A DNA stretch of 28,595 nt, from the IMG/VR virus record IMGVR_UViG_3300002514_000178, positions 1 through 28,595 of that record. One strand, 5' to 3'. The notes below the pieces were generated by a model that had not been told where the DNA came from, made no database searches, and worked only from the letters and a program-made list of their open reading frames with translations. Numbering within the stretch: the stretch's first letter is position 1; each line of letters starts with the position of its first letter. This document shows positions 3,392 through 14,205 of this stretch, piece after piece. This stretch comes from a virus. A program made the position numbers and the translations under genes.

Positions 3392-5629
3392 TCAGGCGCC
3401 GATCATCCGCTGCATCAGCTGTGCGCGCTGGGGCGGAGTCAGGTTGGGTTGGTTGGCGATGTGCAGGAAGAGCTGTGCGTATTCGGCCGGTACGCCGATG
3501 CTGGTCGGATCGACCTGGGCGCGGTGTTCGAAGTTCTCGATCAGCCAGTCGTCGTCGGGGTGTGCGGGCTTCAGGTGCTCGGCGTCGAATTGGTCCTGGA
3601 GGATCGCTTTGATGGCTTTGGAGCCGCGGATATCGACCTTGGAGGAGCGGCGGTAGGCATCGTAAATACGGGGCAGGTGTGTGGCCCAGAGGCTTTTCAG
3701 GTTGTTTTGTTCGAGTTTGATTGCGTCATCGACGCTGAGAGTGTTCGCGAGTTTCGCGGCGGCGAAGTACGGGCGGGCCTGCGCCATTTTGGCCGTTACG
3801 CCGCGAGGGAGTTTGGCCGTGATGGTCACGGGCTCGTCGGCGAGGTGTCCGCGGTAGACGGAGCGGGCGTGTGCCTCCAGCAGGTCGAGCGGGACCATGA
3901 CGCCGTTTACGTTTAGCTTTTTGCCCTGGACGGGGTGCTGCTCGGTCATGCGTTTGAGCAGCGAGGCGACGATGCGGTCGTTGCGAGCGTTGGGGTTCAG
4001 CTCGGTGCGGAGTTTGCTCCGGAGCTGCTCGGAAAGTTTCCGGTATTTGTCGCCGTTTTGGCGGCGGAGCGTGGGGTTGTTTCGGGCTTCGCGGATTCCG
4101 CCTTCTTCGGTGGTGATGTCGGTGCGGCCTTTGACGAGGCCGTTGGTCACGGTTTCGATGTCCTGTTTGTATTGCTCCAGACCGGCTGTCCAGGCGGGTG
4201 TTCCGGGCTTCGGGCGGCGTGTCGCCCAGTGTTTTTGGACGTGGGCCAGGCGTGAGGCGGCTTCCAGGATTGGTTTGCGGTCGTTGCCCTCGGGGATGAG
4301 CCGGTGCGGGTAACGCAGGAGCATTTCGTTGTGGAGGTGTGAAGTTGGGTCGAAACGGTCGTCTGCGCCGCGGAATTCGTAATATTTGGCGGCTTTGGCG
4401 GAGAGGGTTGCCGTGTTGGCGAGCTGAATGGAGTTGGCGTAGCCGTCGTCGCCGAATGCCTGGGGCGGGCGGGGTGGCGGCGGTGGTGGCGGCTTGTAAC
4501 GCCGAGTGCGGCCTGCGGCGGCAGCGCGAATGCGGGCTTCCTGCTGGGCTTTGATGTCAGCGCGGTTCTGGTCGATCAGCGCTTTGAGTCCGAGGTACTC
4601 CTGCTCGGACATGGGAACGATTGCGGTGCCGGGGAGGCTGTTGGCCTCGGCCCACTCCTGTGTGGACCCCTTTTTGGGGACGTAGTTGTAGTTGTCGATG
4701 GCGTCCTGGAGTCGGACCATTTTCAGCTTGGCGCGAGAGAGTCGGGTCCATTTGCCGTCGTGGGCGGCTGCGACGACGTCGTTGCTGGCGAGGTGGCTGA
4801 CGACGCGGGCCTCGTACTCGTGGAGTCGCTGAGCGCGGCGGTTACCTTCGATCTTGTTGCTGTTGCGGAGGTTGGAAGCCTGCGCGTTTTTGAGCCCTTC
4901 GGTGCTTCGCTGGTTGGCGATTGTGCGCTGGGACGCTTCCCATTGGGCCCCGGCGGCGGGGTCGGCCCAGCGGGGCCCGTCGTAGCGGGAGCGAGGCTTG
5001 GCGTGGCCGGTCGGCGCTTCGGGGTGACGCGGTTGTGGGGTGCTGTCGGCGATGAACCGATCGTTCTGGTGGCGTTTGGGGAGGGCTCCGGAGAGACCCG
5101 CGCCGAATTCGGCTTTGGGGATCGCGCGCAGTCGGTCGATGGTTGTTTCGTTGGGTCCGCTGATCACGCGGCTTTCGGGGTCGTAACGGAGGCGCTCTTT
5201 GGGGTCGTGCGTTGCGAGGGCGCGGCGTTGGGCGCTGGTGTAGTCGTTCAGCGGCGGGTCGAGGCGTCCGCGGCGCGGAGTGCGGTCTTCGAGATAGGGC
5301 TCAGGGCGGCGGGGTGTCGCGTTGGGCGCTCGGAGGGCGTCGTCGGCCTGCTGTGAGCGGTAGGCGGGCAGCTCTTCGGGCTTGGCGGTGCTGCCGTGTT
5401 GAATGTCGAGGTACGGCTTTTGGTTGCTGTGTTTGTAGGCTTCCGAGGCGAGGGCCCCGCCGGTGTTGACGACGCCAGCAACCAGCTGGTTGACGACGGA
5501 GTTGCGCAGGCGTTTGTCGGCGAGCTCGCGCTCGAGTTCCATGCGCTCTTTGTTCATCTGAAGGTCGGCGCGGTTGCGCGCGAGCTGTGTCAGATAGCCG
5601 CTGGTGCCGTAGCTGGGAATTCCGGACAT
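3392..5629 (-). CDS. Putative internal virion (ejection) protein, 745 aa
   Basis: Start chosen at ATG 5629 (MSGIPSYGTSGYLTQL), whose A overlaps the upstream TGA (TGATG); the frame is open a little further but lies inside the upstream gene. Residues ~20-45 are a charged helix (MNKERMELERELADKRLRNS) followed by a small hydrophobic stretch (VVNQLVAGVVNTGGALA). A proline-rich low-complexity hinge with seven consecutive prolines lies around 4450-4500. The second half is rich in Lys/Arg/Gln helices, with no recognisable enzyme motif. It sits between two other large helical, low-complexity proteins downstream of the tail nozzle and spikes, the place where podoviruses encode core or ejection proteins. 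Assignment as a virion-internal protein is inference from position and composition; the reading frame itself is secure. Confidence 0.8.
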   Translation of the reverse strand: MSGIPSYGTSGYLTQLARNRADLQMNKERMELERELADKRLRNSVVNQLVAGVVNTGGALASEAYKHSNQKPYLDIQHGSTAKPEELPAYRSQQADDALRAPNATPRRPEPYLEDRTPRRGRLDPPLNDYTSAQRRALATHDPKERLRYDPESRVISGPNETTIDRLRAIPKAEFGAGLSGALPKRHQNDRFIADSTPQPRHPEAPTGHAKPRSRYDGPRWADPAAGAQWEASQRTIANQRSTEGLKNAQASNLRNSNKIEGNRRAQRLHEYEARVVSHLASNDVVAAAHDGKWTRLSRAKLKMVRLQDAIDNYNYVPKKGSTQEWAEANSLPGTAIVPMSEQEYLGLKALIDQNRADIKAQQEARIRAAAAGRTRRYKPPPPPPPRPPQAFGDDGYANSIQLANTATLSAKAAKYYEFRGADDRFDPTSHLHNEMLLRYPHRLIPEGNDRKPILEAASRLAHVQKHWATRRPKPGTPAWTAGLEQYKQDIETVTNGLVKGRTDITTEEGGIREARNNPTLRRQNGDKYRKLSEQLRSKLRTELNPNARNDRIVASLLKRMTEQHPVQGKKLNVNGVMVPLDLLEAHARSVYRGHLADEPVTITAKLPRGVTAKMAQARPYFAAAKLANTLSVDDAIKLEQNNLKSLWATHLPRIYDAYRRSSKVDIRGSKAIKAILQDQFDAEHLKPAHPDDDWLIENFEHRAQVDPTSIGVPAEYAQLFLHIANQPNLTPPQRAQLMQRMIGA

Positions 5630-11354: not shown

Positions 11355-11903
11355 TTAGGCCGCTTTGGGCTTGCGTCGGCCACGGTCGACGGAGCGGATC
11401 GCGCCGATCCGTCCCTTGCGAGGCATGTTCCAGGTGCCGAGGCTGTCTGCGTATTTCTTGAAGGGCTCCCATGCTTCCTTGGCGCGGTCGCGGAAGGTGC
11501 TCTTGATGCGCTCAGCGGCGGTCAACTCGTCGAGCTCGTGTATGTCGAGAGCCTCGGCGATGGCGTTGGCGCGGTTGTACGTGTCGCACTTCTGGAGGAA
11601 GGGGATCACCCGCGCGTCGGCGACGTGGATTGGCGTTCCGGTGTCGTCGTCGACGAGGTGTTTCCAGACCACGGGGACCATCTCCTGATGGCAGCGTTCC
11701 TTCTGGAAGTAGTGCGACACGACGGTGCGGAGGCAGAGTCGCGCGAGAACCCAGCAGCCGCCCGATCCGTCTGGATTTTCGGCCTGCGAGTCCCAGCCGA
11801 CCAGTAGGCGATCGTCGTGAAGCGCCTGTTGCAGTCGGCGTGAGTGCGGGTTCCGCCAGCGGATGCGGCGGGACCGCTTGTATCGGTCCTCGCTGATCTG
11901 CAT
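11355..11903 (-). CDS. Hypothetical virion-region protein, 182 aa
   Basis: ATG at 11903 (MQISEDRYKRSRRIRWRNPH), 3 nt after the preceding stop and 3 nt before the next start. I do not recognise the family. The first ~25 residues are very basic. The centre carries Trp, Cys and His in a compact pattern (GGCWVLARLCLRTVVSHYFQ, KERCHQEMVPVVWKHLVDDD), followed by an acidic helix (EALDIHELDELTAAERIKST) and a Lys/Arg-rich tail. It is not a canonical zinc finger. Its position between the decoration-like protein and the adaptor suggests a capsid-associated or assembly role, perhaps a DNA-contacting minor head protein given the basic ends; this is inference only. Confidence 0.75.
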   Translation of the reverse strand: MQISEDRYKRSRRIRWRNPHSRRLQQALHDDRLLVGWDSQAENPDGSGGCWVLARLCLRTVVSHYFQKERCHQEMVPVVWKHLVDDDTGTPIHVADARVIPFLQKCDTYNRANAIAEALDIHELDELTAAERIKSTFRDRAKEAWEPFKKYADSLGTWNMPRKGRIGAIRSVDRGRRKPKAA

Positions 11904-11906
11904 GTC

Positions 11907-12608
11907 TTACGCGCTCTGCTCCTGGAAGCGGTCGCCGTCGGTGCCGAAGTCGGAGTTGGGCAGCTTGCCGTCGCGGCCTCCGGTGAAGCGCTCGTTGAAG
12001 CTGATCTCGATACCGAGAAGGCCGAGGTCGCTGATGTTGGCGTCGGCGGAGTCCATTTCGAGGGAGAAGGCGAGATAGGCCGAGTCTTCGCCGAAGTTCG
12101 AGGCGAGGATCACGCCGTTGGAACCGCCGGTGCCGCCCAGGGCGACCTCGATCTGGTTGGCGGTGCCGGTGGTCGTGTAGTCGCCGGTGCTGGTGAAGAA
12201 GCCGGTGTCGAGTGCGGTCGAGGGCGCGGCGATGGCGTCGCCGATGGCGAAGACGTCGAAAAGGCCCTTCCAGTCGACGAAGTCAGCGGCGTCGGAGGAG
12301 TCGCTGACCCACACGGGACGGATCTGAATGTCCTGAGTGAGATCCCAGTTAGTGGGGATGCCCATGAAGTGGCTGACGATGTCTCCGTCGTTGACCATGT
12401 CGGCGACCACGATGCCGGTGTGTGCCCACTCGACGAGTCCGCCAGCTGTGCCGGTGTCCGCCGCGGTGGCATCGACAGCCTTCATGATGGAAGGATCGGT
12501 GTTACGCGCGTTGGCTGAGCTGTTGTTGCTGATGGCGTACGAGGCCAGGTTGTACGCGGGGATGAAGAGACGGCCGAAGCGGCTTTTGATGTTGAAATTG
12601 TCGATCAC
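11907..12608 (-). CDS. Putative capsid decoration/minor structural protein, 233 aa
   Basis: GTG start at 12608 (read as MIDNFNIKSRFGRLFIPAYN) with a strong AAGGAG six bases upstream (plus 12615-12620). It is the first gene after the major capsid gene, where decoration or cement proteins are usual. The sequence is acidic, strand-rich and Gly/Thr/Ser-rich: LFIPAYNLASYAIS, then VEWAHTGIVVADMV, IVSHFMGIPTNWDLTQDIQI, RPVWVSDSSDAADFVDW, then a Thr/Gly-rich arm and a final strand LGLLGIEISFNERF. The pattern 'IPxNWD ... DIxIRPVWVS' suggests a beta-sandwich. No enzymatic residues are seen. Translation may be controlled by the structured leader at 12606-12714, whose outer helix includes the start codon. 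The role is inferred from position and composition. Confidence 0.78.
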   Translation of the reverse strand: MIDNFNIKSRFGRLFIPAYNLASYAISNNSSANARNTDPSIMKAVDATAADTGTAGGLVEWAHTGIVVADMVNDGDIVSHFMGIPTNWDLTQDIQIRPVWVSDSSDAADFVDWKGLFDVFAIGDAIAAPSTALDTGFFTSTGDYTTTGTANQIEVALGGTGGSNGVILASNFGEDSAYLAFSLEMDSADANISDLGLLGIEISFNERFTGGRDGKLPNSDFGTDGDRFQEQSA

Positions 12609-12714
12609 GGGATGCTCCTTGCGAAGTTGCCCACCGCTCGCGTGGGCACGGTTTTACCCCCCGTCGCGCCGAACGGGGATACCAGGCTTGGGACCGTGAG
12701 GGGCGCATCCCGTG
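12606..12714 (-). promoter_or_regulatory. Structured mRNA leader sequestering the GTG start of the decoration-like gene
   Basis: In the minus-strand mRNA, CACGGGATGC (12714-12705) is perfectly complementary to GCATCCCGTG (12615-12606), a 10-bp helix P1. The 3' arm is exactly the spacer after the AAGGAG ribosome-binding site plus the GTG start codon. P1 encloses two further hairpins: P2 (12678-12659, stem CCCCGT/ACGGGG, 8-nt loop) and P3 (12648-12628, stem TGCCCAC/GTGGGCA, 7-nt loop). Together these make a three-way-junction-like fold with the start codon buried in its closing stem. Pairing is seen directly; folding in vivo and regulation are inferred. The element lies in the largest non-coding gap of the window. 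Confidence 0.5.
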
Positions 12715-12733
12715 TGTGGGTAGAAGGTGACTC

Positions 12734-12775
12734 GGAGGGGGCGAGCCGAGCCCGCCCGGATCGACCGCCCCCTCC
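12734..12775 (-). terminator. Hairpin after the major capsid gene (possible attenuator)
   Basis: A perfect 10-bp GC-rich inverted repeat (GGAGGGGGCG / CGCCCCCTCC) with a 22-nt loop lies 66 nt downstream of the capsid stop codon. It has no U-run on the minus strand, so it is not a classical intrinsic terminator. It could be an attenuator that reduces downstream transcription relative to the abundant capsid protein, or an mRNA-stabilising structure. Confidence 0.4.
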
Positions 12776-12840
12776 TCGTCAGGGCGTTTGTGTCGCCCGT
12801 AGCCCCTACCCCAGTAGGTCACGGACGCGCCCATTTGCGA

Positions 12841-14205
12841 TTACTGCGGCGTGATCAGCGTCGACGAGTTGATGGCGATGTCGTCGAGGAGCCCGTGGGC
12901 GTTGCGCTTGGTCACGAGCAACTCCAGAATCGCTCCGAACGCGGCCTCGAAGTCGGCCTTGTTCGTCACGCGGGAGAGCACCGCGCCGTCGTCGTCGAGC
13001 CACCGGAATTTGTCCTGGTAGCCGATCTTGATGGCTTTCAGATCGAGGAAGTACAGCTTGTTCAGGAAGCAGTGCCGGTCGCTGACGATGGGCACGTCCA
13101 TCTTGCCGTTGTTCCAGGTGAGGAAGCTGCGGACGAAGCCGCCCTTGAATTTCAGGGGGACGTAGCGGACGTCCCCCTCCATCAGCTTCTTGACCTCGCG
13201 CACGGCGCTGTTGTGGCCCGTGATGTAGTTCGGCCGGGTTCCCGATTTCTCGTTGATCCCGTCGATCATCGCGTCCATCAGCTCGTGACTGAGGTTGCGG
13301 TTGGTGCCGCTGTTGCCGTTGACGTGCGAGGTCCACGTGGTGTTCGCGGACACGTCGATGCCCTGGAAGTCGTCCACGTTGGCGTCGTCGTCCACGCACC
13401 AGGTCAGGCCCGTGAGCTCTTCGCGGTAGGAGACGAAGCTGCTGTCACCGACCGTGAGGACGGCGGTGGCATCCCAGGAGGGGACGGTGGTGTGGACGGC
13501 GTCCCACGTCATGGTGAACGTGGTCCGGCTGTCGACGCTGGCCACCTGGCCGAAGGCGAACGCGGTGTCGTCGCCGGTTGCGGTGGTGAGGTCTCCGGCG
13601 GCGCCGACGCTGGAGCCGGTAACGCCGTTGGCGGTCGCGGAGTCGAGCGCGTTGTCGCCGAGTCGCAACTTCATTCCGGCGTGGACGAAGTGGGTGTCGG
13701 TGACGGTCACGGTGGTCGTGGTGGCACCGGCTGCGGAGCACTCGGCGATGACGCCGGTGATGTACTCGTTGGCGTTGGTGACGGTCGACAGGGTGTCGAT
13801 GTTCAGACCGTGCAGTTGGCGGTTCAGCGAGTGCATCAGCTCCAACGACAGGTCGCGCATTTCGGCGTCCATGGCGTCGGCGAACGCGGCTTTGTCGCCC
13901 TTGGAAGCGGTCATGACGCGGTTCGACAGCTGGATGCGACCGTAGATCTCTTTCGGGACCACGGTGGCTTTGCGGCGTGTCTGGTTTCCGGCGGTCGGAA
14001 GCAGAGCGGACTCGGCGACGGCGCCGACGCCACCGCTGCGTCCGGTGTGGACCGGCCAGATGAGGCCGCTACCGGCGATCTTGCACTCGGAACCGGCCTC
14101 CTTGAGCGCGTCGAAGAGAACGACCTCTTCGTTGAGGATCGATTCGAGAGCGGGTCCGTAGTATTCCTTGAGGACCGCGCTGAAGGTTGATGTGGTGACG
14201 GACAT
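12841..14205 (-). CDS. Major capsid protein, HK97-like fold, 454 aa
   Basis: ATG at 14205 with AGGAG ten bases upstream, 17 nt after the scaffold stop. The N-terminus (LKEYYGPALESILNEEVVLF), then an 'SGLIWPVHTGRSGGVGAVAE' loop and the strand-helix sequence KATVVPKEIYGRIQLSNRVM, match the pattern of phage major capsid proteins (N-arm, E-loop, spine helix AFADAMDAEMRDLSLELMHS). A central Thr/Ala/Asp-rich region (~150-260) looks like an inserted or enlarged beta domain. The C-terminal part (SHELMDAMIDGINEKSGTRP, then a domain ending in FGAILELLVTKRNAHGLLDD) fits the A/P domain. Length is usual for this family. It sits between scaffold and decoration genes. Assignment rests on sequence pattern and gene order. 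Confidence 0.88.
   Translation of the reverse strand: MSVTTSTFSAVLKEYYGPALESILNEEVVLFDALKEAGSECKIAGSGLIWPVHTGRSGGVGAVAESALLPTAGNQTRRKATVVPKEIYGRIQLSNRVMTASKGDKAAFADAMDAEMRDLSLELMHSLNRQLHGLNIDTLSTVTNANEYITGVIAECSAAGATTTTVTVTDTHFVHAGMKLRLGDNALDSATANGVTGSSVGAAGDLTTATGDDTAFAFGQVASVDSRTTFTMTWDAVHTTVPSWDATAVLTVGDSSFVSYREELTGLTWCVDDDANVDDFQGIDVSANTTWTSHVNGNSGTNRNLSHELMDAMIDGINEKSGTRPNYITGHNSAVREVKKLMEGDVRYVPLKFKGGFVRSFLTWNNGKMDVPIVSDRHCFLNKLYFLDLKAIKIGYQDKFRWLDDDGAVLSRVTNKADFEAAFGAILELLVTKRNAHGLLDDIAINSSTLITPQ

Follow-up and report, generated by a model that had tools for sequence, protein, structure and literature searches.

Trp-type attenuator leaders are built on 1:2 versus 2:3 pairing. In RNA phages such as MS2, RNA of the coat gene occludes the replicase start over a long range, and translation of the coat gene opens that start. 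In phage T7, a terminator immediately downstream of the capsid gene has been described, as has coupling of the genes that follow to capsid translation (PMC5592923).

The DNA analyzed here, referred to as the window, spans 28,595 bases (GC 64.8%) and comprises an IMG/VR virus record in full. It represents an uncultured tailed phage with genes for an integrase, a terminase, a portal, and an SU10-like capsid protein. In the spacer that follows the capsid gene, as in trp-type attenuators, one arm has two mutually exclusive partners and the upstream arm adjoins a stop codon; however, the arrangement would act on translation start rather than on termination, is without leader-peptide control codons, and is absent in the relative discussed below. 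As in MS2, the start of the downstream gene can be paired with RNA near the upstream capsid cistron; in the window, however, the start is predicted to become closed when RNA close to the capsid stop is masked. A comparable layout is that of T7 gene 10, T-phi, and gene 11, where a strong hairpin adjoins the end of the capsid gene, the head genes farther downstream share its transcript, and their translational coupling via a structured ribosome-binding site has been suggested (PMC5592923). The window hairpin is without a U tract and the spacer arms differ, and the two are likened by layout, not by sequence homology.

We tentatively favor the view that the 232-nt gap between the capsid gene and the next head gene is a structured spacer specific to one clade, in which a strong hairpin downstream of the capsid gene would precede a ribosome-binding site whose structure reduces translation of the following gene or couples it.

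The capsid gene junction

The features of the junction are given in Table 1. The capsid protein also gave a sub-threshold match to the Pfam family SU10_MCP. No match of the 233-aa protein to Pfam or PHROGs was detected, and its AlphaFold model (pLDDT 34) was unusable. The preliminary description had called its gene decoration-like, a label that goes by position only and is unproven in view of the missing family match and the very low model quality. A weak homolog was identified at the same place in the related phage L043. The next protein, of 182 aa (11355-11903, minus strand), is 46% identical in L043 and is encoded ahead of a gene for an SU10-type adaptor protein; no match of the 182-aa protein to Pfam or PHROGs was found.

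Table 1. Features at the capsid gene junction, with positions in the window (arm pairings and hairpins as predicted by folding)
Feature	Position	Strand	Remarks
Major capsid protein gene (SU10/HK97-like)	12841..14205	-	PHROG 14242 major head protein, E 1.7e-47
Capsid gene stop codon, TAA	12843-12841	-	
Arm 1, GGGCGCGTCCGTG	12820..12832	-	8 nt past the capsid stop codon; rival partner for arm 2
Hairpin A	12728..12781	-	GC-rich, very stable (-41.5 kcal/mol); folding z -5.4
Arm 2, CACGGGATGCGCCC	12701..12714	-	able to pair with arm 1 or arm 3
Hairpin B, GTATCCC-stem-GGGGGTAAA	12653..12682	-	sole part conserved in L043 (4998-5027)
Hairpin C, TGCCCAC...GTGGGCA	12628..12648	-	probability 0.81-0.97; no counterpart seen in L043
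Possible 14-codon leader ORF (GTG...TGA, MPTRAVGNFARSIP)	12605..12649	-	putative, read directly from the sequence
Arm 3, GCATCCCGTG	12606..12615	-	last SD base, spacer CATCCC, and GTG start
233-aa protein gene, next after the capsid gene	11907..12608	-	GTG start 12608-12606

Of the late-strand junctions listed, none is wider than the gap between the capsid gene and the 233-aa gene; the second widest measures 150 nt, and most of the others span a few nt or overlap. The whole spacer folds at a z-score of -3.7, which was reached by 0/200 shuffles, while a 191-nt stretch and the 109-nt element gave -3.2 and -2.3, respectively. By folding z-score the spacer ranks 7th among 284 windows of 200 nt, and equally low scores are also present in coding regions; folding alone is therefore not exceptional. 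Rfam covariance models gave no match in the whole window at gathering score and chance-level matches only at a relaxed threshold. Hairpin A is followed by CCTTCTACCC rather than by a U tract, and a scan for terminators gave no hit on the minus strand, which counts against the spacer we favor.

Complementarity at the start codon

The sequence CACGGGATGC (12714-12705) is perfectly complementary to GCATCCCGTG (12615-12606), giving a 10-bp inverted repeat that encloses two stable hairpins. The Shine-Dalgarno (SD) sequence of the 233-aa gene is GGAG (12618-12615, minus strand). The perfect complementarity of the two arms and the coincidence of the second arm with the SD spacer and GTG start, both reported in the preliminary description, were confirmed, and the two enclosed hairpins (12678-12659 and 12648-12628) were predicted in all contexts tried, hairpin B in either of two registers. 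Folding of 12714-12606 gave -51.1 kcal/mol with all ten outer pairs closed.

It had been suggested that chance was unlikely to produce such a match. Its placement is indeed unusual, but the repeat as such is not: the window has 5 perfect inverted repeats of at least 10 bp with loops no longer than 120 nt, compared with 4.0 +/- 2.1 in shuffles, so that only the position on the start region stands out. A helix of this kind on the start arose in 5/3000 upstream shuffles (last 18 bases fixed, remaining spacer shuffled), and 11/3000 shuffles matched arm 3 as well as arm 2 does. Among 23 gene starts, upstream complementarity of the start region is strongest here (z -3.57; next -1.47). The energy needed to open the SD and start is 14.1 kcal/mol versus 7.7 +/- 1.9 kcal/mol with the upstream sequence shuffled, a value reached by 1/300 shuffles. 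Opening energies are higher at four other gene starts in the window, indicating that start occlusion is widespread in this GC-rich genome; this too weighs against the spacer that we favor.

It is possible, though doubtful, that the structure is incidental, that is, that a GC-rich spacer free of coding constraint folds well and that the 10-bp match to the start is due to chance and has no function. This is a serious rival to our favored explanation. The repeat number and the rank of the spacer in folding agree with it, the arms are absent from L043, and 5/3000 per start over some 24 starts corresponds to a chance of roughly 4% per window. It accounts less well for the second improbable match of arm 2, with arm 1, for the conservation of hairpin B with compensatory changes, and for the long folded spacer that both phages have at the same junction.

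Competing pairings of arm 2

When minus-strand RNA was folded from 12780, as had been proposed as a check, or from 12714, the probability of the outer 10-bp helix was about 1. In a fold from the capsid stop (12843) to 12560 the probability was 0.00. The helix is lost in the whole-spacer fold because arm 2 has a better upstream partner: the minimum-free-energy structure contains a 13-bp helix of arm 1 (12832-12820) and 12714-12701, with hairpin A inside. The energy of the arm 1/arm 2 duplex was reached by 6/3000 shuffles. In this fold the arm 1:arm 2 state leaves the start partly accessible, and the arm 2:arm 3 state is costlier by ~5 kcal/mol. In the folding models, arm 2 thus has two competing pairings, and the predicted winner varies with context; with longer flanks that include more capsid sequence, the outer helix had a probability of 0.02, 0.18, or 0.99, so that thermodynamic prediction leaves the held state unsettled.

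Simple burial of the start within a three-way junction is not supported, given that the helix is gone in the full-spacer fold and the arms are absent from L043. The broader proposal of a folded element touching initiation fares better: the start complementarity is an outlier, both spacers fold (z -3.7 and -3.1), and hairpin B is conserved, although the helix itself is context-dependent.

The two pairings could constitute a ribosome-sensed switch, in which arm 2 paired with arm 1 would leave the start open and arm 2 paired with arm 3 would close it. A ribosome ending at the capsid stop would cover arm 1, heavy capsid translation would close the downstream start, and this negative coupling would set the protein ratio. 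We regard this as improbable. The leading edge of a ribosome terminating at the capsid stop would lie near 12832-12829, and masking of the RNA from the stop codon was predicted to flip it to the closed state between 12832 and 12829, at a position set by context. The probability of arm 1:arm 2 was 0.78-0.90 without masking, and that of arm 2:arm 3 was 0.98 with masking up to 12829. Each arm match is improbable by itself, and 0/3000 shuffles contained both kinds of helix (1:2 and 2:3); however, this three-arm statistic was devised after the data had been seen and concerns one sequence. How much capsid sequence is included in the fold also changes the predicted state, and arms 1 and 2 are both without a counterpart in L043. 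That a terminating ribosome would mask arm 1 and close the start of the next head gene as a ligand-free control of stoichiometry appears still less probable.

Two readings of the repeat as a DNA element were discarded. As an operator it belongs to no family (allowing up to 3 mismatches, 23 sites in the window against 23.3 expected), and for a small transposon with 10-bp ends neither a target-site duplication nor a second copy was seen.

Comparison with a related phage

L043, which has the same gene order, was the only close relative found in alignment-based scans; the identity of its capsid protein is 57% in the best segment and 61% across the alignment. Single-protein scans with the 233-aa protein, the capsid protein, the portal, and the terminase found no relatives, a scan with the 182-aa protein returned L043 alone, and no relative was found in the genomes and plasmids searched. 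Capsid alignments brought up, in addition to L043, a large number of phages, for the most part at 21-31% identity. In the members inspected of a clade at ~31% capsid identity, a ~105-aa gene directly follows the capsid gene and the spacer is absent, making this clade unable to test the element. The ~105-aa gene (MAASVSITYGPEVPG...) directly after the capsid gene was observed in L090, L105, L124, and related loci, a large clade. A search of viral contigs for the exact arm pattern at similar spacing gave 36 matches, all in unrelated sequences and 0 at a comparable gene junction, and these were taken as chance.

The L043 spacer at the same junction is 157 nt long, and its folding z-score (-3.1) was reached by 0/200 shuffles. 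A strong hairpin (z -4.6) is located a short way past the capsid stop. An absence of covariation between the 10-bp arms in related phages had been named as an outcome that would refute the buried start, and that outcome is seen in L043, the one case available, whose spacer has no counterpart of these arms. The L043 SD is instead predicted within a different 7-bp outer helix (4924-4930 / 5028-5034), with a probability of 0.87-0.99 whenever its 5' arm lies in the fold. Occlusion of the L043 start is not unusual, being equaled by 115/300 shuffles for opening energy and by 1496/3000 for SD-start complementarity.

A T arm and acceptor strand resembling those of tRNA or tmRNA (GCGGGTTCGATTCCCGCCACCTGTACTA; L043:4926-4973) are also present in the L043 spacer, with two copies of TCTACAGG upstream. 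Sub-threshold Rfam matches to tmRNA and permuted tmRNA and short matches to phage tRNA-Gly genes were detected in this region, and no tRNA was called by ARAGORN in the spacer. This piece may derive from an earlier attachment site or from a tRNA, or it may represent a tRNA-like fold.

Hairpin B is the best local match between the two spacers (reached by 42/2000 shuffles). All seven pairs (7/7) are kept, with 3 double compensatory changes and conserved flanks; the comparison involves two sequences, and 57/500 control shuffles did equally well, which limits the support that this one relative lends to the spacer we favor. A covariance model of hairpin B found no further copy in 29 sources. Hairpin B is followed in both phages by a conserved GTG, as GGGGGTAAA(A)C(C/T)GTG, and the opening energy at this GTG in L043 is 15.2 kcal/mol. 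It has been considered that hairpin B is the functional part, covering an SD (GGGGGU) with a GUG a few nt later in both phages. In the window this GUG would open the 14-codon leader ORF, and ribosomes translating that ORF would unwind the arms and couple initiation of the 233-aa gene. The leader GTG is preceded by GGGGGG, and its TGA overlaps the GTG of the 233-aa gene (GTGA, 12608-12605), in agreement with such coupling. The products differ, however, being a separate putative peptide in the window and five in-frame codons added N-terminally in L043, and with two sequences and a leader ORF of putative coding capacity we consider this role very unlikely.

Implications

The 10-bp helix is absent from L043 and hairpin B is common to both phages, which points to what is probably an ordinary structured spacer. 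In the clade-specific spacer that we favor, hairpin A would probably protect the 3' end of the capsid mRNA or, in some cases, release polymerase. The remainder would act as a GC-rich leader, structured so as to reduce initiation of the 233-aa gene, with the 10-bp start-codon helix as one of the two competing pairings of arm 2. The 233-aa protein would be made in smaller amounts than the capsid protein, and its translation would rely partly on ribosomes arriving from upstream. We infer these effects on termination, mRNA stability, translation, or coupling from the predicted folds. It had also been suggested that the element mediates autoregulation or responds to a ligand; no evidence was found for either.

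From a single operon, phages have to make capsid and accessory head proteins at fixed ratios. Should the arms be inactive, the ordinary spacer would serve mainly as a warning that what looks like a lock on the start codon can arise from folding a selected sub-window. If the competing arms are active, they would be a compact, ligand-free means of tying the second gene to ribosome flow on the first, with a sign opposite to that of the usual coupling.
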